Shown: in pieces, positions 3,282 through 15,605 of the stretch
Position numbering within the stretch: position 1 is the stretch's first letter
How the letters are laid out: each line of letters starts with the position of its first letter
Source of the DNA: Clostridia bacterium
GTDB taxonomy: Bacteria > Bacillota > Clostridia > Christensenellales > Aristaeellaceae
Direction of reading: 5' to 3'
Length of the DNA: 51,583 nucleotides
Assembly (NCBI GenBank): GCA_030530315.1
Contig: JAUMVG010000018.1
Span: 1-51,583, forward strand
Notes under the pieces: generated by a model
Seen by the model: only the letters and a program-made list of their open reading frames with translations
Databases searched by the model: none
Told to the model about the DNA's origin: nothing
Made by a program: the position numbers and the translations under genes

Positions 3282-4325
3282 TCAGGACCAACCGGCAAGC
3301 TTCCTGAACAGATCACGGAATATCGGGTTTCGATGGCAGAAATACGCCTCACGAATCAGGTGCCTTCGCTCATCATGTGCCCAATGGCTGTCGTCTGTCA
3401 ACAGCGGGCTGTGCGTCAACTTCGTAGGTACCCATTCAGGCTGGATCAAGTAGGCGATGGTGGACACATCCCATATCTCCTTGCCCCAGGCAAAGGAATC
3501 ATCGGTGTATTCGCGCACCTCCTGAAGCAGCATGTCGCACAACGCGTTCTTTCCGCTCAGCCATCGCTCCAGCTCGGGAATGCTGGTTAGCAAATGCGAA
3601 GCGACACCCAAGCAGGGAATCAGCGTCAGTGGAACGCCGCAGTCGAATAGAATGCGTGCCGCCGGAACATCTTGCGACAGGTTGAATTCCTGCGCATAAG
3701 GAAAACATGTGGTGTGTCCGCCAAGCCATATAACCGATATTTTCCGGGCAATCGAGGGTTTCTTGAGCAACGCAGACGCGATGTTCGTGCAAGCGCCAAT
3801 AGCTGCCACGAACAATGGCCTGTCGTCGGGCTGCGCCATGGCCAGCTCGATCAGGTTGTCAACCGCCTCACATTGTACCGGCGTGTTCCCATCCCGCAAG
3901 TATTCTCTTGCGCCACGACAAATGCGCACCTCTCCGGATCTCCCCATTGCGGTCAGCAGGCGCACTATTTCTTCATAGCTCTTCTCCATGCCATCTGCGG
4001 GACTCGACGATCGACTGTTGAAAAACGGGGCCGCATGAATTGCCCGCAGGTTGATACGCTCAGGCGAGAGCAGAGCGTATGGCGCCACACGCTTCGCTGC
4101 TTCAATGGGATCCTCGCCATTCACCAGTGTATTGGCCGTATCCAGGCAAACGCCGGTCAGATGGCTTCCCGTCGCCTCGATTACCCTTAGCACGTCGAAC
4201 GTGGCGTCACTGTGGTCTTCGATATTGATGCGTGACCCGTATTTTTCCAGCGTGGGGCGAAGCCGGTTTAAACACCATGTCGGGGCTGCCGACATGGTGT
4301 TTAGTATGGGCTCTCCTTCTCGCAC
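3282..4325 (-). pseudogene. Chimeric ORF: sugar-isomerase fragment fused to an N-truncated nucleoside hydrolase
   Basis: One open frame of 347 codons from a GTG at 4325. Residues ~20-83 (LEKYGSRINIEDHSDAT..., VCLDTANTL) match the middle of xylose-isomerase-like TIM-barrel sugar isomerases/epimerases. From about residue 84 on (ALLSPERINLRAIHAAPFFN...) the protein is a nucleoside hydrolase of the inosine-uridine family, continuing to a normal C-terminus. The hydrolase part starts just after the place where its family has the DTDxGxxxDD calcium and catalytic motif, so that motif is missing; the TIM part lacks both ends. The join falls at YALLSPER, where the families would read ...APY and ...AYALLSPER. 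I infer an internal deletion that fused two neighbouring operon genes. Assembly error is the main alternative. It is the last ORF of the TRAP operon, 18 nt after the LarA-like gene. Confidence 0.7.
4269..4303. repeat. Perfect 15-bp inverted repeat inside the 5' end of the chimeric ORF
   Basis: The arms TAAACACCATGTCGG (4269-4283) and CCGACATGGTGTTTA (4289-4303) enclose a 5-nt loop. It starts 41 nt after the LarA-like stop codon on the minus strand, as a transcription stop or a deletion scar would. There is no T-run. Confidence 0.8.
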
Positions 4326-4343: not shown

Positions 4344-5600
4344 CTACTCTCCTTTTCGAATCCACGGCAGCGTCGAGCCGCCGTAGGGCATGGCCAGCAC
4401 CGTCGCATTCGGCCCATATTTCCGCAGCGATTCATCCAGCGCCGCCTGAACGGAATGCGCAGGCTTCATGAAGATGCGCCTGACCAGGTCGTCCTCCAAA
4501 TCGCTCACCAGGATGATCTCCGCCTTCTGCATCACCATGGCGATGGCCGCGGCTTTGTGCCCGCCCAGCTGAAACTGCCTGCCGATGCGCTCGATCATGC
4601 TTTCCGGAGTCGGCGCGGAGAGCATCCATTCCTCAAACACCTTCTGGCCCAGGCCTTCCCAGCAGCTTCCGATCAGTATGATCGTGCCGCCCGGCTTCAC
4701 CGCGTGCTTGGCGTTATCCAATGCCTTTTGCGTCTGGTACAGGTTCAGATCCTTGGGCGCTCCGCCCTGGGAAACAATGACGATGTCCGCCCTTTGATCA
4801 AGCTCCTTTCTGTACATTCGGTCCAGGAACGCGCATCCGGCGCGGTGGGCCCGGATCCAATCGCCCGCCACGGCCCGAACGATGTGCTTGTGTTCATCCA
4901 GCACGACGTTGACGATGAAATCCACGCCCACCATGGCCGTCGCCTGCTCCAGGTCCTGGCGGAGAGGGTTGTCGTCCAGATTGCCCGTGCAGGCCGCCTC
5001 CTGAACCATCAGACTGTGGTTGCGTTGGATCGCTTCCTGCGTGGAGCAGCCCGGCATGATCGCCTTTGCGCCGCCGGAATAGCCGGCAAAATAGTGGTAT
5101 TCGATATTCCCCAGGCAGATGCGCCGATCCGCCTCGGCCACCACGCGGGTGATGTTCACCGGCGTCCCGCGCTCGGTCGTCCCAAACTGCACGCAATCCT
5201 CGCGGTCGCTGTCCACGCAGCGGATCTCCCGCCAGGCCCTCTCCCCCGCAAGCTGCCGACGCTCCTGTTCCGTATGGGGGCGATGACTTCCCAGCGCGAA
5301 AACCAGGGTAATGTCTTCCGGCCGGCATCCCGCCTCATACAGCTCGTCCAGCACCGCCGGCAGGATGCGCTGCGACGGGCAGGGGCGCGTGATATCGCTG
5401 GTGATAATGGCGATCCTCTCGCCGCTGCCGACGATATCCCTCAGCCTGGGCGTGCCGATCGGCTCGTTCAGGGCCCTGCGCACCTCGGCCTCGTCCGTAA
5501 GCCCACAGGGGATATCGTTTGCCGTCAGTATGCCCATCAGGTTGCCGTCCGGCACCTCCGCGACCTGCGTCCCCCTGCCAAAGCCAAATTCAATTCTCAC
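4344..5600 (-). CDS. LarA-like nickel-dependent 2-hydroxyacid racemase/epimerase
   Basis: A 418-aa member of the lactate racemase (DUF2088) family. Visible family motifs are IITSDITRPCPS near residue 68, FALGSHRPHT near 105, and the cofactor-region segment NIEYHYFAGYSGGAKAIMPG near 180-200. LarA enzymes use a nickel pincer cofactor to racemise lactate, and paralogues epimerise other 2-hydroxyacids by hydride transfer. No larB, larC or larE cofactor genes are in the window, so the cofactor would have to come from elsewhere. Start GTG at 5600, with GAGGGAG upstream; 30 nt after the PGK stop codon. In this operon it probably sets the C2 stereochemistry of the imported acid; the substrate is not evident from sequence. 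Confidence 0.87.
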   Translation of the reverse strand: MRIEFGFGRGTQVAEVPDGNLMGILTANDIPCGLTDEAEVRRALNEPIGTPRLRDIVGSGERIAIITSDITRPCPSQRILPAVLDELYEAGCRPEDITLVFALGSHRPHTEQERRQLAGERAWREIRCVDSDREDCVQFGTTERGTPVNITRVVAEADRRICLGNIEYHYFAGYSGGAKAIMPGCSTQEAIQRNHSLMVQEAACTGNLDDNPLRQDLEQATAMVGVDFIVNVVLDEHKHIVRAVAGDWIRAHRAGCAFLDRMYRKELDQRADIVIVSQGGAPKDLNLYQTQKALDNAKHAVKPGGTIILIGSCWEGLGQKVFEEWMLSAPTPESMIERIGRQFQLGGHKAAAIAMVMQKAEIILVSDLEDDLVRRIFMKPAHSVQAALDESLRKYGPNATVLAMPYGGSTLPWIRKGE

Positions 5601-5630: not shown

Positions 5631-6887
5631 TCATTGAGGCGGAAACGCGCTTGCGGCATGCCGGAGCGCCTTGACCACCGGCAATTCCTCCCCGGTCAGG
5701 AAGCGAATCAGCGCGCCGCCGCCCGTGCACATGTAGTCGATCTTCCCGGTCACGCCGTACTTCTTCGCCGCTGTCACGCTGTCGCCGCCGCCGACCACGG
5801 TATAGGCAGGCGTCCGGGCCAGGGTTTCAAAGAGCACCTTCGTTCCATACTCGCTCGCTTCCGCCTCAAACACACCCAGCGGGCCGTTGGCGAACACCGT
5901 CTTGACCTTCATGAGCCTTTCCGCGTAGCTCAGCGCAGTTTCACTGCCAATGTCCACGGCGTTGAAGTCCCTTGGAATCGAGCCAATCCTCGCCTCCTCC
6001 CGCCTGCCTTCAACGACCTGCGCCAGATCCGCAGGCAGGACGATCTTGTCCCCATACCTGTCCAGAAGGCTCCGGGATTTCCCGATGAAATCCCCGTATC
6101 CGGATTGCTCGATGAATGCCCGCGTGCCATCGCCTATCTGCTCGCCCTTTGCCGCCAGGAGTATCTCTCCCACCAGCCCGCCGGTAAGCACCAGATCCGC
6201 CGCGCCGGATTTCAACACCGTCTCCATCATCATGAACGCGTCGGAGATCTTGGCGCCTCCAAGCACGAACGCGCAGGGGTGCTCCGGCTGCTCCATCAGC
6301 CCGGATACCACGCAGTATTCCCTTTCAAACAGCCTTCCCATGGCGCTTGGCAGCACCTGTTCAAAGCCGCACAGCGTCGGTTGGTCCCTGTGCGCCGCGG
6401 CAAAGGCATCGCATACATAGAGATCCGCCAGCGGCGCGAGCTTCGCAACCACCTGTGTCAATGCCTGCTGCTCATGGGTCAGGTGAAGGTTCATTTCAAA
6501 CAGCGTTTGCTCCTCGGAACAGAACCGCACATTATCGAGCAGCAGGATCTCGCCGTCCTTCATGTCCCCTATGGCCTGTCGGGCCGTCGGGCCGCACACA
6601 TCTTCGATCCAGCGGACTTCCCTGCCCAACAGTTCGGCAAGCACTTTGGCATGCGGGCGGGTACAGTAGAAATTCTTGTACTCGATGTCGCTGCCTTGAT
6701 GGGCCAGCAGGACCACTTTCGCGCCTTTGTCAGACAGCTCCCTGACCGTCGGCGCGCAGGCCGCGATGCGATGAACGCTCTTCAGCGTATCTGTCGAGCG
6801 ATCCACCGGCTGGTTCATGTCCACGCGGCACAGCACGGTTCGGCCGCGTACCTCGAAATCCTCCAGTGTACATATACCGTATCTCAC
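5631..6887 (-). CDS. pgk: Archaeal-type phosphoglycerate kinase
   Basis: A 418-aa phosphoglycerate kinase (3-phosphoglycerate + ATP <-> 1,3-bisphosphoglycerate + ADP). Family motifs in order: CRVDMNQPVD (substrate loop), VLLAHQG (where bacterial enzymes have SHLGRP), LLDNVRFCSEE, LGGAKISDA, ANGPLGVFE, VVGGGDSVTAAKKYG and CTGGGALIRFL. VLLAHQG and the whole N-terminal half read like the archaeal branch. The GTG at 6887 is chosen as start because GGAGGTG lies 6 nt upstream; an ORF extending to 6926 would place that site inside the gene. It follows the type II GAPDH gene, from which a small terminator-like hairpin separates it. Acting on a four-carbon analogue instead of phosphoglycerate is possible. 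Confidence 0.9.
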   Translation of the reverse strand: MRYGICTLEDFEVRGRTVLCRVDMNQPVDRSTDTLKSVHRIAACAPTVRELSDKGAKVVLLAHQGSDIEYKNFYCTRPHAKVLAELLGREVRWIEDVCGPTARQAIGDMKDGEILLLDNVRFCSEEQTLFEMNLHLTHEQQALTQVVAKLAPLADLYVCDAFAAAHRDQPTLCGFEQVLPSAMGRLFEREYCVVSGLMEQPEHPCAFVLGGAKISDAFMMMETVLKSGAADLVLTGGLVGEILLAAKGEQIGDGTRAFIEQSGYGDFIGKSRSLLDRYGDKIVLPADLAQVVEGRREEARIGSIPRDFNAVDIGSETALSYAERLMKVKTVFANGPLGVFEAEASEYGTKVLFETLARTPAYTVVGGGDSVTAAKKYGVTGKIDYMCTGGGALIRFLTGEELPVVKALRHAASAFPPQ

Positions 6888-6959
6888 GTCATTCACCTCC
6901 GACGATTGCGACGTGTCCCATAGCATCCCGTCAATCCCAAAAAGCGCCTTGAATCATCA

Positions 6960-7016
6960 ATAATTCCAAAAAAGAGGAGGGACCCCCGACAGGCGCCCCC
7001 CTCCGCAGCACAGTGC
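6960..7016 (-). terminator. Terminator-like hairpin between the GAPDH and PGK genes
   Basis: On the minus strand GGAGGG (within GCGGAGGGGGG) pairs with CCCTCC, followed by TCTTTTTTGG. The stem is only 6-7 bp, so it could give partial read-through and lower PGK expression relative to GAPDH. Confidence 0.45.
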
Positions 7017-8054
7017 TTACTTCTTGAACTTCCCGATTCCCAAATACCGGTTGGTCTCGGCCGTGCCTTCCTCGCGCGTCAGCTGCATGCGCATGGCCGC
7101 GCGAATGCCGTCGATGGTCTCCGGGATCGTCACGCTCTCCTGGGGAATGTTGATCGCGTACATGATGTCGTTTCCGCTCTCAACGATGGAATCCGACCAC
7201 AGGCCGATCTCATACATGTCTCCCCTGGGATTGCCCAGGTCGCGGGCGTATTTGAACAGCGAAGCGTTGCCCTTGAAGCCCTCGTCGATGCTCACCACGC
7301 GAATGCGCGGATGGGCCTGGAACACCGCCAGAGCTTCCTCGCGGGTAATCTTGCGTCCGTCCCTTCCGCTGGCCAGCACGGTGATGATGTGCCCGTGGGT
7401 CACCGGCGTGTGGACCAGTATGCCGGTGGCATCGACATGCGGCATGATCGTCATTAAATCCACCGCCTGGTGGCTCGGCGCCTTCTCCATCTGCAGCGCG
7501 TTGGTCAGGCCGCGATGATAATCACCGGGATCCGCGACGCGCCGAATGATCGTAATGGCGACCTTGCTCACGCCGTATGCGCGATCCAGCGCGTCCACCG
7601 AGCGGATCAAGCCCGTGGTGTTGCAGCTCGTCAGCTTCAGATAGTTCTGCCCGAGTCCCTTTTCGTAATTGGCATAGCCATGGAAGAACACATCCGCGAC
7701 GCTGTTCTTCTCGCCGCCCTGGAAGATGGCCTTGACGCCGGCCTTCTCATAGAGCACCTTGTTCTTCGCGCCGACACCGCCGGGGCTGCTGTCCAGCATG
7801 ATATCCACCTTGCCGATCAGGTCGGCGAAGGTGCCCGCCACGGGGATCCCCAGCGCGTCAAACTGCGACTTGTCCGCGCCATCCACCAGATAAAGGTCAT
7901 AGGGCATGCCCTTTTCGTGCAACGCCCGAATCGCCAGCGTCGGGGCCAGATCCGCAATGCCGACAAGCTCCATGTCGCCCTGAAGAGCCACGCCGTCCGC
8001 CAGCCTCTGACCGATGGTCCCGTAACCGGCTACGCCCACTCGTATCTTCGCCAT
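7017..8054 (-). CDS. Type II (archaeal-type) glyceraldehyde-3-phosphate dehydrogenase
   Basis: A 345-aa protein that matches archaeal phosphorylating GAPDH rather than the bacterial GapA family. It has a Rossmann start VGVAGYGTIGQR, then DSSPGGVGAKNK, AIFQGGEKN near residue 115, and the catalytic cysteine in TSCNTTGLIRS near residue 143, followed by RRVADPGDYHRG and HTPVTHGH. The enzyme converts glyceraldehyde-3-phosphate + NAD(P) + phosphate to 1,3-bisphosphoglycerate. Length and all key motifs look intact. GGAGG lies 8 nt before the ATG at 8054. Paired with an archaeal-type PGK in a TRAP operon, it may serve a dedicated catabolic route or act on an analogue such as erythrose-4-phosphate; sequence alone cannot decide. 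Confidence 0.9.
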   Translation of the reverse strand: MAKIRVGVAGYGTIGQRLADGVALQGDMELVGIADLAPTLAIRALHEKGMPYDLYLVDGADKSQFDALGIPVAGTFADLIGKVDIMLDSSPGGVGAKNKVLYEKAGVKAIFQGGEKNSVADVFFHGYANYEKGLGQNYLKLTSCNTTGLIRSVDALDRAYGVSKVAITIIRRVADPGDYHRGLTNALQMEKAPSHQAVDLMTIMPHVDATGILVHTPVTHGHIITVLASGRDGRKITREEALAVFQAHPRIRVVSIDEGFKGNASLFKYARDLGNPRGDMYEIGLWSDSIVESGNDIMYAINIPQESVTIPETIDGIRAAMRMQLTREEGTAETNRYLGIGKFKK

Positions 8055-8115: not shown

Positions 8116-8778
8116 TTACAATCCCAGCACTTCCCGGATCTGCGCGACGCCGGTCTCGAGGCTGGTCAGCACGGGCACCTGGACATCTTCCAGCAGCGGC
8201 AGCAGATGATACATGCTGCCCTGGGCCAGCACGATGACGTCGTGATCCTTCGCCGCCTCGCGCACCTTCGCGCACACCATCTCATTGTGCTTTTGCTTGT
8301 CGCCCGTCTTCAGCAGGAAATCATACGCCCCTTCCACGTAGCAGCGGTCTACGGTCACCGCCTTGCCGCTCAGCGCGGCATAGTGCTCCACCAGGCGGCT
8401 GGAGGGCTCGACCGTGGAGATGGCCGTGGCGATCACCGCGATGCGGCTTCCCAGCTCCACAGCCTTCTTCGCCATCGGCCCGTCGATCTTGACCACGGGG
8501 ATGCTGATGAGCTTTGCGGCAATATCCGCGACCTCACCCACCGAGGAGCACTGATTCAACACGCACTTGCAGCCAAGCTCCTGCATGTTGGTGTAGTAGT
8601 CGCACATCCTGCTGATGATTCCCGGAGTCACGCCGCGGTTGGCCAGCGCCTCCTCGAGAAGCGAGTCATCGATGATGTTGATCATCTCAACCTCAGGCAG
8701 GTACTTGCGGAACATCGCCTTCAAATCCTCCACCGAATAGAGGAACGTATGAACCACGCCAACTCTGATCTTATCCAT
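8116..8778 (-). CDS. Asp/Glu racemase-superfamily protein, single catalytic Cys
   Basis: A 220-aa protein of the aspartate/glutamate/hydantoin racemase superfamily. The first catalytic cysteine is present (VLNQCSSVGEVAD near residue 77). At the position of the second cysteine, where racemases read GC(T), this protein reads VLAQGSMYHL, with no Cys. Two-base racemases need both cysteines; family members with one Cys include decarboxylases and isomerases. Hence a racemase assignment is doubtful and decarboxylation or cis-trans isomerisation of a dicarboxylate is an alternative. A Shine-Dalgarno AAGGAGG precedes the ATG at 8778, 22 nt after the SDR gene's stop codon. Confidence 0.8.
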   Translation of the reverse strand: MDKIRVGVVHTFLYSVEDLKAMFRKYLPEVEMINIIDDSLLEEALANRGVTPGIISRMCDYYTNMQELGCKCVLNQCSSVGEVADIAAKLISIPVVKIDGPMAKKAVELGSRIAVIATAISTVEPSSRLVEHYAALSGKAVTVDRCYVEGAYDFLLKTGDKQKHNEMVCAKVREAAKDHDVIVLAQGSMYHLLPLLEDVQVPVLTSLETGVAQIREVLGL

Positions 8779-8800: not shown

Positions 8801-9565
8801 CTATCCGTGGACCAGCGTCAACCCGCCGTCGACGAACAGCGTCTGTCCTGTGATATAGCTCGCCTCATCCGACGCAATGTATAAAACGACATCGGCAATC
8901 TCCCGCGTCTCGCCGCGCCGCCCCATGGGAATCTTCTCGCACATCGCGCGATGCGCCGCCGGATCCCGGTACTTGGCTTCGTTGATCTTTGTCGGAATGC
9001 TGCCGGGCGCCACACAGTTGACCCGTATGCCGTCCCGCGCCCACTCCCGCGCAAAGCTCTTTGTGATCTGTGAGATCGCGGCCTTGGTGCCCGCGTATAC
9101 AGCCTGCTGCACGACCACCGTCACCGCGTTCACCGAGCCGATGTTCACGATGCAGCCCCCGGTCCCCCGGCGAAGCATGTCCTGCGCCGCGGCCTGGCAG
9201 CCGAAGTAATACCCCCTGAAGTTGGTATTGACCACCTGGTCGAATATTTCTTCCGTCATTTCCACCGTGGGTATGGGGTGCTCGATGCCCGCGTTGTTGA
9301 CCCACACATCGATCCCGCCGTACGCGCGCACAGCCTGGTCCCGAAAGGCTGTGATATCCGAAACGACGCTCGTATCCGCCTCAAAGATGCGGACGCGCGG
9401 ATCGTCGTCCCCGGCAAATTCCCTCGCCGCGGCGCGCACGCGTTCGGCGCTGCGGCTGCAGAGCGCCAGGCTCGCGCCGGCCTCGTAAAACGCCCGCGCA
9501 ATCGCCTTGCCAATGCCGCTGGAGGCGCCGGTGATCGCGACCACCTTCCCGGTATAATCAAACAT
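8801..9565 (-). CDS. SDR-family NAD(P)-dependent dehydrogenase
   Basis: A 254-aa classical short-chain dehydrogenase. It has the cofactor loop ITGASSGIGKAIA near residue 11, VNNAGIEHP near 88, the catalytic Ser in NIGSVNAV, and the YxxxK pair in YAGTKAA near 155; the C-terminus SYITGQTLFVDGG is typical. It likely oxidises a secondary alcohol of the imported acid or an intermediate. The ATG at 9565 is chosen because GGAGGGT lies 5 nt upstream; a TTG two codons earlier is less likely. It lies between the TRAP permease and the racemase-family gene. Confidence 0.9.
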   Translation of the reverse strand: MFDYTGKVVAITGASSGIGKAIARAFYEAGASLALCSRSAERVRAAAREFAGDDDPRVRIFEADTSVVSDITAFRDQAVRAYGGIDVWVNNAGIEHPIPTVEMTEEIFDQVVNTNFRGYYFGCQAAAQDMLRRGTGGCIVNIGSVNAVTVVVQQAVYAGTKAAISQITKSFAREWARDGIRVNCVAPGSIPTKINEAKYRDPAAHRAMCEKIPMGRRGETREIADVVLYIASDEASYITGQTLFVDGGLTLVHG

Positions 9566-9607
9566 GCGCAACCCTCCATCCTCCGTCTGAACAGTGTCCG
9601 CCGTCCG

Positions 9608-10885
9608 TCACATCAGCAGGTTGGGCAGCAGCGAGCAGATCTGCGGAATATAGGTGATTATCAGCAGAGAAACGATGAGCGCTATGACAAAGGGCACGAT
9701 CGACTTGATCATCTCCTGCGAGGTGATGCCCGCCACCTTTTGCGTCAGGAACAGGCACAGGCCAACGGGCGGCGTGATCAGGCCCAGGGTCAGGTTGAAC
9801 ACCACCATGACGCCGAAGGCCACAGGATCGCAGCCCAGCTGAATGGCCAGGACGCCCAGCACCGGTCCCAGGATCATGTAGATGGAATTGCCCTCCATCA
9901 GGCAGCCGAGGATCAGCAGCATGACGTTGACCAGGAACAGCAGCACGTACTTGTTATTCGACAGAGACAGGAAGAAGTTGCAGATCTTCGTCGGCACCTG
10001 GTTGTGCGTCAGCACCAGGCCGAACACGCCGGCCATGGCCAGCACAAAGAGCGTGGAGCTGGCGAAGGTCGAAGTGTTCTCCAGGATCTTGAACAGCTGC
10101 TTGAAGTTGATCGTCCGATACCAGAACAGCGAGATCAGTATGGAGTAGACCGTCGCCACGCAGGCCGCCTCGGTCGCGGTAAAGACGCCGCTGAGGATGC
10201 CGGCGATCAGGATCACGGGCATCATCAGCGCCGCGAAGCTGTCCTTGAAGGAAGCGCGGATCGCCTTGCCTGAAGCCCTCTCCTGGAGGGGATAGTGACG
10301 GCGGACGCTGATCACATAGGCGATCACGCCCATGGCCAGGCCCATCAGCAGGCCGGGCAGCAGGCCGCCGATCAGCAGCTTGCCGATGGACACGCCCGTG
10401 ATCGAGCCATACAGTATCATGCTCGTGCTGGGAGGGATGATCGGCGCGACCGTGGATGACGCCGCCGTCACCGCCGCGCTGAAGCCCTTGTCGTACCCCG
10501 CTTCCGTCATGGCGTCCATTTCCATCTTGCCTATGCCGGACACGTCGGAAACCGAGGATCCGGACATGCCCGCCATGATCATGCTCGTCAGGATGTTGAC
10601 GTGCGCCAGGCCGCCGGGCAGGTGCTGCACCAGCGTGCCCGCGAAGCGGAAGATCTTCTTGCCGACATCCGCGCCGGAGAGGATCGACGAAGCCATCATG
10701 AAGAAGGGGATCGCCATGATCGTAAAGGAATCCAGCGCGTTGACGGCCTTCTGCGCAATGACCACCGAGGTCGCCGTGTGATTGACCAGCAGCATGATGG
10801 TCGCCGAAATGCCCATCGAAAACGCGATCGGCACGCCGATGAACATGAAGCCAATCAGACAAATCCATATGATGGCGCCGATCAT
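9608..10885 (-). CDS. dctM: TRAP transporter large permease subunit, DctM
   Basis: A 425-aa integral membrane protein with about 11-12 hydrophobic segments. The N-terminus (LIGFMFIGVPIAFSMGISA) and the internal AIPFFMMASSIL and VAPIIPPSTSMILYG segments are characteristic of DctM, the sodium-coupled translocation subunit. It shares a 4-nt ATGA overlap with dctQ, so the two are translationally coupled. TRAP systems import organic acids (dicarboxylates, sugar acids, sialic acid), which fits an operon of hydroxyacid enzymes. The three separate genes dctP, dctQ and dctM show this is an unfused system. Confidence 0.95.
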   Translation of the reverse strand: MIGAIIWICLIGFMFIGVPIAFSMGISATIMLLVNHTATSVVIAQKAVNALDSFTIMAIPFFMMASSILSGADVGKKIFRFAGTLVQHLPGGLAHVNILTSMIMAGMSGSSVSDVSGIGKMEMDAMTEAGYDKGFSAAVTAASSTVAPIIPPSTSMILYGSITGVSIGKLLIGGLLPGLLMGLAMGVIAYVISVRRHYPLQERASGKAIRASFKDSFAALMMPVILIAGILSGVFTATEAACVATVYSILISLFWYRTINFKQLFKILENTSTFASSTLFVLAMAGVFGLVLTHNQVPTKICNFFLSLSNNKYVLLFLVNVMLLILGCLMEGNSIYMILGPVLGVLAIQLGCDPVAFGVMVVFNLTLGLITPPVGLCLFLTQKVAGITSQEMIKSIVPFVIALIVSLLIITYIPQICSLLPNLLM

Positions 10886-11391
10886 TTGCCCTTTCCCCCT
10901 TTCACGAGGTCAACCGTGGCCGTTATCAGCTTGTAGACCGCGATCAGGCTGCTGAAGAACATGCTGATCGGAAGGCTCATATACAGCCACAGCCTGGAGA
11001 TGTTCAGTCCCGTGGTCACGCCACGCCGGATGATGGGATTGTTGCACAGGCCCACGCCGAACACGAAGAGCATGATGCAGAACGCGCTGATGACCGCGTA
11101 GATGAACACATTGACCTTGGCCCGGGTCTTCGGCTTGTACCGCGCCAGAAGCAGATCCACCGTCAGGTGTTCCCCCTTGTGCAGCACGCCGATGCTCCCC
11201 AGAAACGTAAACCAGATCAGGCACAGCTTCGCCAGTTCCTCCGTCCACGGCGTGTTGATCTTCAGAAGCACACGGCCGATAATCTGCCAGCTGACCGTGA
11301 AGATCATGGCCAGGAGCAGCGTGCCGGTGATCTTCTTTTGAACAAAGACAATCCCATCCAGTATTTTGTCGCATATTTCCCGAATCTTCAC
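10882..11391 (-). CDS. dctQ: TRAP transporter small permease subunit, DctQ
   Basis: A 169-aa protein with four predicted membrane segments. Its motif TPWTEELAKLCLIWFTFLG is typical of DctQ, as are GRVLLKIN before it and the HKGEHLTVDLLL turn. It partners DctM in the membrane. The start is a GTG at 11391, with GGGGG about 10 nt upstream; an ATG alternative is absent nearby. It follows dctP after 108 nt containing a strong hairpin. Confidence 0.93.
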   Translation of the reverse strand: MKIREICDKILDGIVFVQKKITGTLLLAMIFTVSWQIIGRVLLKINTPWTEELAKLCLIWFTFLGSIGVLHKGEHLTVDLLLARYKPKTRAKVNVFIYAVISAFCIMLFVFGVGLCNNPIIRRGVTTGLNISRLWLYMSLPISMFFSSLIAVYKLITATVDLVKGGKGK

Positions 11392-11499: not shown

Positions 11500-12492
11500 T
11501 CAGCCCTTGAGGGATTCGAAGAACTCCTCGGTAAAGTAGCCCTTGCCCACGAACTCCTTGTAGACCTCCGCGCAGGCATCCTTGAAGGCCTGGAAGTCGA
11601 TGTCGTCGGCGTACAGCACTTCCACGCCGGCATCCTCGAACTTCTTCCACGCGGCATCGATCTCCTGAGCCACGTTCTCGGCGCGCCACTCGGTCACGTC
11701 CACGCCGGCCTTCACGATGGCGGCCTGCTGCTCCTCGGTCAGCCCGTTGAACCAGGCTTCGCCCACGACCAGCGCGATGGGGCTGGGCATGTGATTGGTC
11801 TCGGAGACGTACTTGACGACCTCCTGCAGGTTGATGGAAGCCAGCTCGGTGATGGCATTCTCGACGCCGTCACAGGCATTGCTCTGCAGGGCGGTGAACA
11901 CCTCGCTCCAGGCGATGGTGGTGGGCAGGCCGCCCATGGCGGTGATGATGGCCGTGTTGGCCTCGGAGGAGGGAGAGCGAACCTGCAGGCCCGCCATGTC
12001 CGCCGGGGACTTGACGGCATGCTTGGTGTTCGCCATGACGCGCATCGGGCGATACAGCAGCGCGACCAGCTTCAGGTTCGTGCCGGAGAGCACCGTGTCG
12101 ATGGCCTTGCGGGCCTCGGTGTCGCCCTCCAGGATCGGCCGCATCTGTTCGATGTTGTCATACAGATAGGGCATGCAGATGGCGTAGCACTCAGGCGCCA
12201 GGTTGCCGATGCCGTCGAACCCGACGACGCAGGCCTCGACCGTTCCCAGCGCGGTGCCCTCCGTAAACTCAACGGAACCGCCCAGCTGGCTCGCGGGATA
12301 CACTTCCACATCGATCTCGCCGTTGGAGTACTCCTCCACCAGCTCTTCGAATTTCAGCATCGCCTGATATTCACCCAGTTCAGGATCAGCGGTCGTTGTT
12401 CCGGCAAACTTCATGACCACCGGCTCCGCCAGCGCCGCACAGCTGACGAATACAAGGATCAGACAAACGAGTGTGCAAAGCAGCTTCTTCAT
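11500..12492 (-). CDS. dctP: TRAP transporter periplasmic-type solute-binding protein, DctP
   Basis: A 330-aa extracytoplasmic binding protein. A Sec signal peptide (MKKLLCTLVCLILVFVSC, cleavage near ALA-EP) is followed by the DctP fold: KFEELVEEYSNGEIDVEVYP, the AGLQVRSPSSEAN segment near residue 168 that holds the conserved carboxylate-binding Arg, and WSEVFTALQSNACDGVEN near 195-210. The ligand should carry a carboxylate. The mature protein would be tethered to the cell surface or to DctQM; no clear lipobox is present. GAAGGAGG lies just before the ATG at 12492. It follows the hydrolase gene after 54 nt. Confidence 0.95.
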   Translation of the reverse strand: MKKLLCTLVCLILVFVSCAALAEPVVMKFAGTTTADPELGEYQAMLKFEELVEEYSNGEIDVEVYPASQLGGSVEFTEGTALGTVEACVVGFDGIGNLAPECYAICMPYLYDNIEQMRPILEGDTEARKAIDTVLSGTNLKLVALLYRPMRVMANTKHAVKSPADMAGLQVRSPSSEANTAIITAMGGLPTTIAWSEVFTALQSNACDGVENAITELASINLQEVVKYVSETNHMPSPIALVVGEAWFNGLTEEQQAAIVKAGVDVTEWRAENVAQEIDAAWKKFEDAGVEVLYADDIDFQAFKDACAEVYKEFVGKGYFTEEFFESLKG

Positions 12493-12546: not shown

Positions 12547-13425
12547 TTAAACAGGAATGTGCTTTTCCAATGCCAGACGGATCTCATCCGCCTCTCCCAT
12601 CTCCCGCAGGTGCGTCAGAACTGTCACGCAGATGCCGCCGCCGGGTTTCTTCCCTTCCGCGCGGCACACAGCGGCCACCGCCTCCCCGAGCATTCTCCCG
12701 CCCGGGCCTTTATAGCCTGCGACAAATTCCCTTACGCGGTGCTCCAGGCGCTCACAGCAGGCGATTCCCTGCTCCGCCTTCTTCCGAAGCTCGGATCCAG
12801 GCATCGGCTCGTTATGATCGCAGTAGACCTTTTCAACCGACAGTCGCGCCAGCTTCTCCATCGAGTCCCGGTAGGCCAGTGAATCCGCATATTGGGGCAG
12901 GCCTCCGAAGAACCCCTCGCCCATCAGCGAATCCCCTGTAAACAAATCTCCCGTCTCCCGAACGAGATAGCAGACGCTTCCCGCCGAGTGTCCCGGCGTG
13001 GCGATGATCTGAATGGATATGTCCCCCAGCGACAGCACCTCGCCGTCCGCGATGGCGCATTCGGGGGTCATCTCCTCGCCGATTTCGGAGACAAAGGTCG
13101 TTCGCCGCGCCGCCGGCAGGTCAAAATCCTCGGAAAACTGCCCGAACAGCGCCTCCCAATGCCAGGCATGGTCGCTGTAGTACCGCGCGTCGCCCGGATG
13201 GGCATAGACGCAAACGCCCCGCCTCTGCAGATAGCCATGATTGCCGATGTGATCCCAGTGGCCATGGGTGCTCAGCAGCACGCTGTTGGCATTGGCGCTG
13301 CGTTCCAGCGCGGAACGCCCGGATGCCAGGCCGCTGTCGATCAGCACGTCTCCGGAGGCACTGTGGAGCCTGAAGCTGTTGACATAGATTCCCAGATAAG
13401 GATATCTCAATAGCTCGACTTCCAT
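12547..13425 (-). CDS. Metallo-beta-lactamase-fold hydrolase
   Basis: A 292-aa MBL-fold protein with the metal motif STHGHWDH (HxHxDH) near residue 55, the further ligands in ATPGHSAGSVCYL (His) and FTGDSLMGEG (Asp) near 140-165, and CDHNEPMPGS near 195. Such enzymes hydrolyse lactones, thioesters or phosphoesters. In this operon lactone opening of a sugar acid is the most natural guess. The ATG at 13425 is preceded by GAAGGGTG and lies 5 nt after the stop codon of the PdxA-like gene, so the two are coupled. A longer ORF in the same frame reads back through the PdxA gene and is not real. Confidence 0.85.
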   Translation of the reverse strand: MEVELLRYPYLGIYVNSFRLHSASGDVLIDSGLASGRSALERSANANSVLLSTHGHWDHIGNHGYLQRRGVCVYAHPGDARYYSDHAWHWEALFGQFSEDFDLPAARRTTFVSEIGEEMTPECAIADGEVLSLGDISIQIIATPGHSAGSVCYLVRETGDLFTGDSLMGEGFFGGLPQYADSLAYRDSMEKLARLSVEKVYCDHNEPMPGSELRKKAEQGIACCERLEHRVREFVAGYKGPGGRMLGEAVAAVCRAEGKKPGGGICVTVLTHLREMGEADEIRLALEKHIPV

Positions 13426-13430
13426 GGCGC

Positions 13431-14441
13431 TCACCCTTCTCTCCGGTTCGCGCGGTCCTGTTCCACCAGCCTCAGCAGCATTTTCATGCTCGCAATCAGG
13501 TTCTTGGGATCCGCCGTGCCCTTGCCCGCCTTGCCATAGGCCGGGCCGTGTCCGACGGACACAATGCGCGCGGGCAGATTGGTATAGATCAGCACGCCGT
13601 CGCCAAAGAACACGCTCTTCATGGCGATATTGCCCTGATCGTGATACATGAACACCACGCCGGCAACCTGCTTGTTCAGCGCCTTCAAAAAGACCGTATC
13701 CGCCGGGCACGGACCGATGACGTCGCAGCCCTCCGCCTTCAGAATGTCGATCGCCGGCTGTATCTTGGTGATCTCCTCATCCCCGTACAGGCCGTGTTCG
13801 CCCGCATGAGGATTCAGGGCGGCGACGGCAATCTTGCAGTCCTCTTCTGGCATGAAGCTGCGCATCACGCCCAGCAGGCTTCTGGCGGTGTCGACGATGC
13901 CCTGCGTGGTCAACCGCGCCGGGATCTCGGCGAGCGCGCAGTGTCCCACCACCGTGCAGCGGAAGATCCCGCCGCCGCAGATGGCCGCGCGCACCTTTTC
14001 AACGCCGTACTGCTCCATGAAGATATCAAATTCAGTACAGGTCTTGTAGCCCGCTGTGAACAATGCCTCTTTGGTGATAGGCGCCATGGAAATGCCGTCG
14101 ATCACGCCCGCTTTCTGAAGGTCGATGGCGCGAACGACGGAATTGTAGATCAGGTGACCGCTGTCCGCCGTGACTGTGCTGAAGACAATGTCATCCCCGG
14201 CCGGGACGTCGGCAAAATACACAGTGTGCGGCTCGACAAACGTCGGACGCCCTTCGAGCGGAAGCACCTCGATCGCCTCCGCCCCTTCAACGACCTTCCT
14301 CGATATTTCAAAGCGCTTCCGATTGCCGATCAGAACAGGGGTATAGCTGCCGTCATTGGCCAGTACCGCCTTCGCTGCCAGCTCCGGACTGCTTCCCGCG
14401 TGATCTCCCAGGATAATACCCAGCACAGGCCTGTCGCTCAC
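13431..14441 (-). CDS. PdxA-family 4-phospho-hydroxyacid dehydrogenase (PdxA2-like)
   Basis: A 336-aa member of the 4-hydroxythreonine-4-phosphate dehydrogenase family. It shows LGIILGDHAGSSPE (usual MGDPAGIGPE), the metal-binding ALNPHAGEHGLYGDEE near residue 210, GPCPADTVF, and FMYHDQGNIAMK near 270. In the D-threonate and D-erythronate pathways PdxA2 oxidises the 4-phosphate and decarboxylates it to dihydroxyacetone phosphate. The context (first gene of a TRAP operon, no vitamin B6 genes) favours that catabolic role over pyridoxal synthesis. The usual partner kinase (DUF1537) is not in the window. Start GTG at 14441 with AGGAG 8-9 nt upstream; an ATG at 14513 lies upstream in frame without a ribosome site. 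Confidence 0.88.
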   Translation of the reverse strand: MSDRPVLGIILGDHAGSSPELAAKAVLANDGSYTPVLIGNRKRFEISRKVVEGAEAIEVLPLEGRPTFVEPHTVYFADVPAGDDIVFSTVTADSGHLIYNSVVRAIDLQKAGVIDGISMAPITKEALFTAGYKTCTEFDIFMEQYGVEKVRAAICGGGIFRCTVVGHCALAEIPARLTTQGIVDTARSLLGVMRSFMPEEDCKIAVAALNPHAGEHGLYGDEEITKIQPAIDILKAEGCDVIGPCPADTVFLKALNKQVAGVVFMYHDQGNIAMKSVFFGDGVLIYTNLPARIVSVGHGPAYGKAGKGTADPKNLIASMKMLLRLVEQDRANRREG

Positions 14442-14568
14442 AGTCTCAACTCCTCTCCGTCCATTTCCCGTGTGAAGTCCACTTTCAACAATTCGCTCAT
14501 TCGATCGCTCCAATTATTATCCAATCGTTTTGTATTGTTATTTTTGTTAATCATCCGTTATTGATTAA

Positions 14569-14834: not shown

Positions 14835-15605
14835 ATGCCCATCAATGAGCGGAAGCAGGAGATTATGAGCGTATTATCCGAGCGAAAGAGCATTTCGCTC
14901 AAGGACTTGGGCAATACTCTCCATTACTCACAGGCCACCCTCCGAAGAGACGTCAGCACTCTGGCTTCTGAAGGACTGCTGCAGCGTACGCATGGCATGA
15001 TTCACTGGATAGACTCGGTGCCAAATAAAGTCCTTCCGGCGAGAGACCGCGGCCTTCTCAACCTGCACAGCAAGCGCATGATCGCGCAAAAGGCCGCCGA
15101 GCTGGTGCAGGACGGCGCGACCATCATATTGGATTCCGGAACCACCACCTGCGAGCTTGCGCGTGTGCTGCTTCCCCGCTCCATCAACGTCGTCACGAAT
15201 TCTCTTGAGATCGCGCTGATCATGGCTCAATCCAGTTCGCAGATCATATCCTGCGGCGGGTTGCTTCAGCCCAAGCAGCTGTGCTTCCTCGGCCCCGATG
15301 CCGAGCGCTTCTTTGAAAGCATCGAAGTCGACGTGCTGTTCCTGGGGACCACCGGCGTGCGCGGGACGAACGGCCTCACCACCTCCTCTCCCCTGCAGTA
15401 CAACATCAAGCAGGCCATGATCAACGCCGCCAAGAAGAAAGTCGCGCTGTTCGATCTTTCAAAGCTCGACACCGCCTGTCTGTTTGTCTTTTCGGATTTT
15501 TCAAATATCGACACGATCATTACGCAGCAGCCTCTTCCGGGCACGCGCGAAGAAATGTTGCTCAACGAGATTCGAGACAGGGACGTTGAGATCCTGTTCG
15601 CCTGA
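14835..15605 (+). CDS. DeoR-family transcriptional regulator
   Basis: A 256-aa regulator. The N-terminal winged helix (NERKQEIMSVLSERKSISLK, then HYSQATLRRDVSTLASEGLL) is the DeoR DNA-binding domain. The C-terminal sensor domain has IILDSGTTTCELARVL near residue 97, VVTNSLEIA, and FLGTTGVRGTNGLTT near 170, the phosphosugar-binding (isomerase-like) fold. DeoR proteins usually repress until a phosphorylated sugar or sugar acid binds. It is divergent from the TRAP operon across a 393-nt AT-rich region with consensus promoters, and is the obvious regulator of that operon. The aldo/keto reductase follows after 73 nt on the same strand. Confidence 0.92.
   Translation: MPINERKQEIMSVLSERKSISLKDLGNTLHYSQATLRRDVSTLASEGLLQRTHGMIHWIDSVPNKVLPARDRGLLNLHSKRMIAQKAAELVQDGATIILDSGTTTCELARVLLPRSINVVTNSLEIALIMAQSSSQIISCGGLLQPKQLCFLGPDAERFFESIEVDVLFLGTTGVRGTNGLTTSSPLQYNIKQAMINAAKKKVALFDLSKLDTACLFVFSDFSNIDTIITQQPLPGTREEMLLNEIRDRDVEILFA

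Follow-up and report, generated by a model that had tools for sequence, protein, structure and literature searches.

What is the substrate of an archaeal-type glyceraldehyde-3-phosphate dehydrogenase (GAPDH) homologue and an archaeal-like phosphoglycerate kinase (PGK) homologue that are encoded side by side in a clostridial TRAP transporter operon? In the window, the whole stretch of 51,583 nucleotides that was analysed, both genes are intact, adjacent open frames on the minus strand, the PGK frame likely starting at a GTG near 6887, in agreement with the start of its orthologues. The operon and its divergent neighbour comprise the following features.

4344..5600, minus strand: LarA homologue, nickel-pincer malate racemase of the LarAH6 family (NF052593, 585.9 bits, cut-off 500)
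5631..6926, minus strand: PGK homologue (Pfam PGK, 355 bits), predicted D-malyl-1-phosphate:ADP phosphotransferase, i.e. D-malate kinase
7017..8054, minus strand: type II (archaeal-type) GAPDH homologue (NF003251 and TIGR01546 over cut-off), predicted phosphorylating D-malic semialdehyde dehydrogenase
8116..8778, minus strand: Asp/Glu/hydantoin racemase superfamily protein (PF01177, 58 bits)
8801..9571, minus strand: SDR dehydrogenase (PF13561), common to locus L040 at 58%
9608..10885, minus strand: TRAP large permease DctM (TIGR00786, 415 bits)
10882..11391, minus strand: TRAP small permease DctQ, so named only for its position and appearance, with 0 NCBIfam matches at E<=1e-15
11500..12492, minus strand: TRAP solute-binding protein DctP (PF03480, 224 bits)
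12547..13425, minus strand: MBL-fold hydrolase (PF00753), ATG start at 13425
13431..14513, minus strand: PdxA-family oxidative decarboxylase (PF04166, 221 bits), under every PdxA equivalog cut-off (TIGR00557, 215 against 290)
14835..15605, plus strand: DeoR-family regulator (PF00455/PF08220), divergent, from its position a possible local regulator

Transketolase is absent from this operon, and a search of the window's genome for IolD at E<=1e-100 returned none. The genome does encode a malic enzyme (contig C104) and the nickel-pincer cofactor gene larE (contig C28, 239 bits against 150). In L040, L131 and L132 the gene for the Asp/Glu-racemase-like protein again lies next to the GAPDH and PGK genes, and in L133 it adjoins larA only. 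Of 391 genomes of the class, 13 have a match to this protein (E<=1e-25), which has 0 PDB relatives at E<=0.01. By eye, its relatives in L134 and L135 adjoin DUF1537-like kinase genes.

Class and residues of the two proteins

The window GAPDH scored 399.6 bits against NF003251 (cut-off 185) and 304.5 bits against TIGR01546 (cut-off 232.9), and its PDB matches at E<=0.001 were only four GAPDHs, 2czc, 1cf2, 1b7g and 2yyy, which we take to be archaeal. It shares with archaeal type II GAPDH the profile family, the SCNTTGL catalytic motif and FQGGEK. Against the four PDB enzymes, however, 27 columns are fixed differently in at least 90% of 84 sequences (window included), and 21 of these differ in 84/84; SHH becomes SHQ, GPxN becomes GLTN and PTTLMHxH becomes HTPVTHGH. 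Asp35 stands where archaeal type II GAPDH has Lys, which suggests that the window-type protein uses NAD rather than NADP.

The best PDB match of the window PGK was 2cun (299 bits), presumably the Pyrococcus horikoshii PGK, followed by 1vpe (219 bits). Quick trees (SH-aLRT, no bootstrap) were built from chosen subsets, 47 rows for GAPDH and 40 for PGK, and long branches were flagged in them. In the PGK tree an SH-aLRT 100 branch divides the window PGK and 2cun, the one archaeal PGK included, from the canonical PGK of the same genome and two bacterial PGKs, a grouping that carries a long-branch warning. The GAPDH tree held type II sequences only, and the archaeal versus ordinary bacterial class was judged by profile scores instead. 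Nearest to the window proteins were L035, L039 and L037 for GAPDH and L052, L037 and L042 for PGK, all of them loci with iol genes and L037 common to both. Thus the preliminary description of an archaeal-type GAPDH beside an archaeal-like PGK in a TRAP operon is borne out by profile scores, PDB matches and the PGK tree, and alignment with PDB enzymes agrees with it that the catalytic motifs of both are intact.

The PGK-type sequences keep Asp23, Asn25, Arg38, His62, Arg122 and Arg170, and most substrate and ATP residues are common to 2cun and the window PGK. At the position of Arg65, where a basic residue presumably binds the 3-phosphate (we assume the usual roles for the other kept residues likewise), 66 of 70 sequences have Ser, four have Asp and none, the window included, has a basic residue. 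The motif VLLAHQG had been read as an archaeal mark; the PGK is indeed archaeal-like, but 2cun keeps Lys here (THQGKP) whereas the window has Ser (AHQGSD).

A canonical PGK with SHLGRP lies elsewhere in the genome (C92:21300-22433, 543.6 bits), less than 1 kb from a canonical iPGM (C92:18961-20502), and a canonical GAPDH on contig C6. The search for canonical gapA and pgk thus upheld the proposal of a dedicated, non-housekeeping pair. Of the two contrary outcomes named in the preliminary description, placement of both proteins within ordinary bacterial clades and lack of any other gapA or pgk, neither came about.

Genomic neighbourhoods of the pair

From 440 related stretches in one scan, 80 loci were fetched, many ending early at contig boundaries. 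Across them the pair's neighbours are malate racemase, malic enzyme, split transketolase and IolG, IolE, IolD and IolB. Among the 36 type II GAPDH loci of at least 18 kb, PGK was found in 35, LarA in 33, any iol gene in 33, the transketolase halves in 28 and malic enzyme in 21, and 26 of the 36 had PGK, transketolase, LarA and iol genes together. The usual home of the pair is thus mostly a myo-inositol operon with split transketolase and often malic enzyme. GAPDH identity across related loci is 82-89%, and most of these loci have iol genes.

There are exceptions. Six loci of at least 14 kb gave no iol match (L040, L050, L070, L090, L108 and L114), transketolase was absent within the fetched stretch in six of six spirochaete loci (L086, L088, L089, L099, L109 and L113), and in genome G010 a GAPDH is present with no PGK, transketolase or LarA match nearby. 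The TRAP operon was rejected as the defining context, DctP and DctM giving tblastn matches (E<=1e-15, at least 30% identity) in 0 of the 80 loci; a PdxA match was found in one. A permuted iPGM-like gene lies inside the inositol operons of 22 of the 80 loci, in family f10, and a canonical iPGM was found elsewhere in six of six f10 genomes searched. Sugar-ABC-transporter-like genes were noticed, by eye only, near related loci.

Mutual exclusion with IolC

Type II GAPDH was over cut-off in 29 of 396 genomes from the order, and IolD (E<=1e-100) was present in 68, including 27 of the 29 (Fisher 4e-21, uncorrected for kinship). Sixty-five of the 68 IolD genomes were sorted: 27 had type II GAPDH only, 36 IolC only, none both and two neither (Fisher 3e-16 for the exclusion, likewise uncorrected for kinship), and both types occur within families f1 and f24. 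IolA was found in two of the 27 type II GAPDH genomes (G227 and G387) as against 35 of the 36 IolC genomes. The IolB matches, for three proteins, were far under cut-off (88-97 against 205).

LarAH6 was over cut-off in 18 of the 27 genomes with type II GAPDH and IolD, leaving nine without, as against 0 of the 38 other IolD genomes. LarE at E<=1e-30 was found in only three of 67 genomes, and in two of the 20 genomes whose LarA is over cut-off. Malic enzyme proved useless as a discriminator, with matches in 64 of the 67. In L040 (21 kb), where LarA and malic enzyme matches are both absent, a gene of the tartrate dehydrogenase family (TIGR02089, 503.8 against 470.4), which we take to include D-malate dehydrogenase activity, directly follows the PGK gene. 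This swap was seen in L040 only; as a general stand-in for LarA the D-malate dehydrogenase was not supported, TIGR02089 being over cut-off among the 67 genomes only in G012, an IolC genome.

A proposed route to malate

Four lines of evidence, namely the neighbours at related loci, the exclusion of IolC, the PGK pocket devoid of a basic residue and the L040 swap, lead us to propose, at a probability of about 0.72, that the pair takes as its substrate a triose phosphate mimic bearing a carboxylate, converting D-malic semialdehyde to D-malate with gain of ATP. Judged by the conserved neighbours, it is probably the core of an ATP-yielding route from an inositol product to malate. In most carriers IolG, IolE, IolD and an IolB-like isomerase would convert myo-inositol to 2-deoxy-5-keto-D-gluconate (DKG), which may be viewed as the carboxylate analogue of xylulose-5-phosphate, its ketose end having the xylulose/fructose configuration. 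The split transketolase would move the C5-C6 unit of DKG onto a sugar-phosphate acceptor and leave D-malic semialdehyde (OHC-CHOH-CH2-COO-), the analogue of D-glyceraldehyde-3-phosphate with CH2COO- replacing CH2OPO3. The GAPDH homologue would then form D-malyl-1-phosphate with NAD and Pi, and the PGK homologue would pass its phosphate to ADP, yielding D-malate and ATP. LarA would convert D-malate to L-malate, and malic enzyme L-malate to pyruvate and CO2. The module of transketolase, GAPDH, PGK and LarA would thus stand in for IolC, IolJ and IolA. The reactions given to the GAPDH, PGK and transketolase are predictions from sequence and gene context, and we infer the stereochemistry from established chemistry with the help of Fischer projections. 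Several of the findings above count against the route: the nine genomes without LarAH6 over cut-off, the scarcity of LarE, the GAPDH of G010, IolA in G227 and G387, the loci without iol genes or transketolase, the permuted iPGM-like gene, the low IolB scores and, for the window, the missing transketolase and IolD and a changed substrate-side residue in LarA.

In the window operon the module seems to be put to use on another substrate; the whole upstream half of the route would here start from a different acid, which the TRAP transporter would import and which the PdxA-like, SDR and Asp/Glu-racemase-like proteins would process. The earlier suggestion of a catabolic setting with probable substrate-level ATP gain is supported. 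There is an outside chance of a whole parallel metabolism with CH2-COO- for CH2-OPO3, pairing DKG with xylulose-5-phosphate, D-malic semialdehyde with G3P, D-malyl-1-phosphate with 1,3-BPG and D-malate with 3PG. The window would then be a second entry, the PdxA-like enzyme oxidatively decarboxylating a 2,3-dihydroxyglutarate-type acid to 4-hydroxyacetoacetate, a mimic of DHAP, and the Asp/Glu-racemase-like protein acting as the triose-phosphate-isomerase equivalent.

Alternative substrates and roles

A dedicated lower-glycolysis pair that acts on G3P and 3PG and adds capacity, under different regulation, for the operon's triose phosphate is unlikely. The families are annotated GAPDH and PGK, the catalytic residues are intact, and the permuted iPGM-like gene of the f10 operons fits true lower glycolysis better. 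However, this would leave the malate racemase, malic enzyme and transketolase of the same operons unexplained, as well as the exclusion of IolC, whose pathway also yields DHAP, and neither the loss of the phosphate-site basic residue from all 70 PGK sequences nor the separate housekeeping copies favour it. Triose phosphate, the substrate put forward in the preliminary description, is therefore probably wrong, the four lines of evidence above pointing elsewhere. The same description offered a four-carbon analogue, and this part may stand in the form of D-malic semialdehyde; erythrose-4-phosphate as the substrate is not supported. That the pair handles erythrose-4-phosphate and 4-phosphoerythronate, or another phosphorylated four-carbon analogue from the PdxA branch, is very unlikely: a PdxA-family gene does head the operon, and a D-threonate 4-phosphate dehydrogenase is among its PDB relatives, but an acid-sugar kinase is absent among the operon proteins scanned, LarA is left unexplained, and PdxA is matched at a single related locus despite the high GAPDH identity across them.

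Since the GAPDH and PGK reactions are both reversible, the pair might instead run towards biosynthesis, activating D-malate and reducing it to malic semialdehyde; this is highly improbable given the inositol degradation genes in most operons, the catabolic outlet of malic enzyme in many and the nearby transporter-like genes seen by eye. That housekeeping gapA and pgk merely happen to lie here, for which annotation speaks and nothing further, is refuted for this assembly (94% complete, 6% contamination) by the canonical copies unless C6 or C92 is a contaminant contig, and the type II GAPDH model had 0 matches in three other listed genomes of the window's genus.

Implications

If the proposed route to malate is correct, rumen and gut clostridia and spirochaetes would have a myo-inositol route in which no ATP is spent on DKG and the PGK-like step yields ATP. 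Malate kinase and malate semialdehyde dehydrogenase chemistry would then have natural enzymes, the open question of what the LarAH6 malate racemase is for would have an answer, and the widespread genes named type II GAPDH, at the 440 stretches of the scan, would be misnamed. Among the matches listed in a search of the open-access literature, which leaves subscription papers and preprints outside, neither an earlier description of a type II GAPDH route from inositol to malate nor an assay of it was found.

Comparison with known systems

The classical iol pathway of Bacillus subtilis (iolABCDEFGHIJ) shares IolG, IolE, IolD and an IolB-like isomerase with the type II GAPDH operons. In contrast to it, most of the latter loci carry transketolase, GAPDH, PGK and LarA, with or without malic enzyme, and IolC was over cut-off in none of the 27 genomes. 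IolC-DUF2090 variants of the classical pathway are described in PMC9007349.

The best PDB match of the window LarA was the malate racemase Mar2 (6d6z, 425 bits), an assayed LarAH6 enzyme, whose role in vivo is called a remaining question by its authors and whose substrate-side positions are named as Y172, K173, Q293 and K351 in PMC7583248. The window LarA keeps the equivalents of Tyr172, Gln293 and Lys351 but has Phe at Lys173, and it differs in having GAPDH and PGK homologues as operon partners.

Malate kinase and malate semialdehyde dehydrogenase were engineered from LysC and Asd and, in PMC5481828, called previously unreported activities. That malyl-phosphate pathway shares its kinase and semialdehyde dehydrogenase logic with the predicted module; while the engineered enzymes act at the 4-carboxyl of L-malate, the natural ones would act at the 1-carboxyl of D-malate.

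An additional type II GAPDH and PGK pair

The preliminary description had placed an archaeal-type GAPDH and an archaeal-type PGK side by side, and this assignment held. The two genes are adjacent on the minus strand and both are intact; they are listed here with one further ORF:

7017-8054, minus strand: type II GAPDH homologue (GAP)
5631-6926, minus strand: archaeal-like PGK homologue (PGK)
3282-4325, minus strand: 347-aa ORF just after larA

Two curated models assign GAP to type II GAPDH. The top match of PGK among solved structures was 2cun, a Pyrococcus enzyme. The putative operon runs from about 14.5 kb downwards in the order PdxA-like, MBL-fold hydrolase, TRAP DctP-DctQ-DctM, SDR, Asp/Glu-racemase-like, GAP, PGK and LarA (nickel-pincer malate racemase family). 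The question of whether canonical gapA and pgk lie elsewhere in the genome was answered in the affirmative: a canonical PGK with SHLGRP was found less than 1 kb from a canonical iPGM, and the genome also has its own GAPDH of canonical type. The pair is thus an extra one and not the sole copy. In the 347-aa ORF a sugar-isomerase TIM barrel, represented by its C-terminal part, is combined with a nucleoside hydrolase devoid of its N-terminal part; the ORF has the appearance of a deletion fusion or a remnant.

Most related loci carry inositol genes

GAP was used to scan GTDB genomes, yielding 440 stretches with a relative, and the best 80 of the 440 (82-89% identical) were fetched as loci. Their source labels name clostridia, spirochaetes, Chloroflexi/Anaerolineaceae and, for a single record, Synergistaceae, with many from rumen or gut samples. 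The first recognised gene past GAP was PGK in 67 loci, malic enzyme in three and IolE in one, with none in nine. An iol gene was seen in 60 of these best 80 loci, many of which are truncated by contig ends. Of the 36 loci with at least 18 kb available, 35 have PGK, 33 LarA, 33 at least one iol gene, 28 transketolase halves and 21 malic enzyme; six loci of at least 14 kb (L040, L050, L070, L090, L108, L114) had no iol gene. Representative neighbours scored above curated-model cut-offs as IolG, IolD, IolE and LarAH6 malate racemase. Three IolB-like proteins scored far under the IolB equivalog cut-off, and the representative one belongs to the Pfam KduI/IolB family. Transketolase in the representative locus L083 is in two pieces, the N half being separate from the pyrimidine-binding/C half.

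In quick trees on chosen subsets (type II sequences only for GAP), the rows nearest the window were L035, L039 and L037 for GAP, its position being approximate, and L052, L037 and L042 for PGK; iol genes lie near all five loci. L070 (3101-13643) is a third context for the module, with GAP-PGK-LarA directly behind genes that by eye resemble those of an E1alpha/E1beta/E2/E3 dehydrogenase complex, a zinc alcohol dehydrogenase and a transaldolase.

A predicted route from DKG to D-malate

2-Deoxy-5-keto-D-gluconate (DKG) is CH2OH-CO-CHOH-CHOH-CH2-COO-, and seen from the ketose end its C3-left, C4-right arrangement is the D-xylulose configuration. DKG thus resembles xylulose-5-phosphate with a carboxymethyl end for the phosphate ester, and is a plausible transketolase donor. 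Removal of a two-carbon unit by transketolase would leave OHC-CHOH-CH2-COO- of the D series, a mimic of D-glyceraldehyde-3-phosphate, from which a GAPDH-like step followed by a PGK-like step would give D-malate. D-Malate as the product would account for the malate racemase that comes next and for malic enzyme after it. In one locus only, L040, a tartrate dehydrogenase-family gene above cut-off follows PGK in place of LarA, and its 21 kb gave no match to LarA or malic enzyme. The E. coli D-malate dehydrogenase, a decarboxylating enzyme, belongs to this family.

The PGK substrate and catalytic residues tested were all kept in 70 of 70 sequences (length at least 370, window included, but without the more remote PGKs of family f24 at 37-44% identity), except at the Arg65 site, which we take to be part of the 3-phosphate pocket. 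Here Ser was found in 66 and Asp in four, as against Lys in 2cun and Arg in the PGK structure 1vpe; the one f24 PGK read (L022) has Asp. Judged from sequence, the loss of one charge from this pocket would suit a carboxylate substrate. In GAP, 27 columns uniform in a small set of four PDB enzymes carry a different, fixed residue in 90% or more of the 84 sequences compared, window included.

Distribution of the module among genomes with IolD

Across the 396 genomes of the window's order, type II GAPDH was above cut-off in 29 and IolD was present in 68, and 27 of the 29 also had IolD, the exceptions being the window's genome and G094. Among the 65 of 68 IolD genomes examined, 36 had IolC above cut-off, 27 had type II GAPDH, none had both and two had neither (G325, G361), counts which ignore kinship, family f5 alone supplying 25 of the 36. 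Because family f1 (two GAP-II, one IolC) and family f24 (19 GAP-II, four IolC, two neither) each hold both kinds, this exclusion does not reflect one deep split. IolA tracks IolC, occurring in 35 of 36 IolC genomes versus two of 27 GAP-II genomes (G227, G387), and LarAH6 was above cut-off in 18 of the 27 versus none of the 38 remaining IolD genomes. We read the distribution of IolC, IolA and LarAH6 to mean that GAP-II-PGK(-LarA) probably stands in for the kinase, aldolase and dehydrogenase steps with which the classical pathway ends. G094 carries two type II GAPDH matches (L129 on C25, L130 on C90), one truncated at a contig end; one sits, by eye, behind isomerase-, SDR-, SMP30-lactonase- and alcohol-dehydrogenase-like ORFs.

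Ordinary lower glycolysis is a rival explanation, and its strongest single argument is a circularly permuted iPGM-like gene in the inositol operons of 22 of the 80 loci, notably in family f10, lying just upstream of iolG in L057, L083, L064 and others. However, all six f10 genomes searched have a canonical iPGM elsewhere.

Several results run against the malate route. LarA above cut-off was missing from nine GAP-II/IolD genomes (G010, G227, G249, G289, G307, G316, G352 with a partial match, G378, and G387 with one below cut-off), and a TIGR02089 (tartrate dehydrogenase) protein does not fill this gap. G010 keeps GAP but has no PGK, transketolase or LarA match nearby. Transketolase was found in none of six spirochaete loci, which include a malic enzyme relative in L086, L088 and L113 and LarA under its cut-off in L088, L113 and L099. 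The nickel-cofactor protein LarE, at E<=1e-30, was absent from 18 of the 20 genomes with LarA above cut-off among 67 searched, G000 and G114 being the two of the 20 that have it; the cofactor is possibly borrowed, or LarE divergent. Malic enzyme failed as a discriminator, with a match in 64 of 67 genomes.

The substrate of the window operon

No IolD was found in the window's genome at E<=1e-100, and its operon has no transketolase; LarE is present, with a malic enzyme relative on contig C104. L040 shares PdxA-SDR-racemase-like-GAP-PGK with the window, L131 and L132 have GAP, PGK and LarA together with the racemase-like gene, again as in the window, and in L133 that gene adjoins LarA alone. We infer that the GAP-PGK module was recruited for a second substrate, imported via the TRAP transporter; a parallel CH2-COO- metabolism with a PdxA-like second entry is speculation. 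Upstream of the PdxA-SDR-GAP-PGK run in L040 (3471-7509) lie KDPG-aldolase-like, seven-bladed lactonase-like, amidohydrolase and tartronate-semialdehyde-reductase-like genes. By eye, further Asp/Glu-racemase-like members adjoin a DUF1537-like kinase and acid-catabolism-like genes (L134, 7037-10840; L135, 5095-10238, on C123 of the window's genome), neighbourhoods resembling four-carbon acid-sugar pathways.

Relation to known systems

No description of this pathway was found in the open-access literature. The malate racemase paper names malic enzyme as a telling context, and its main text gave no hit for inositol, phosphoglycerate or glyceraldehyde (PMC7583248); a review from 2025 on inositol metabolism in the gut gave none for transketolase or malate. 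The enzyme families are already known; their assembly and predicted substrates appear to be new.
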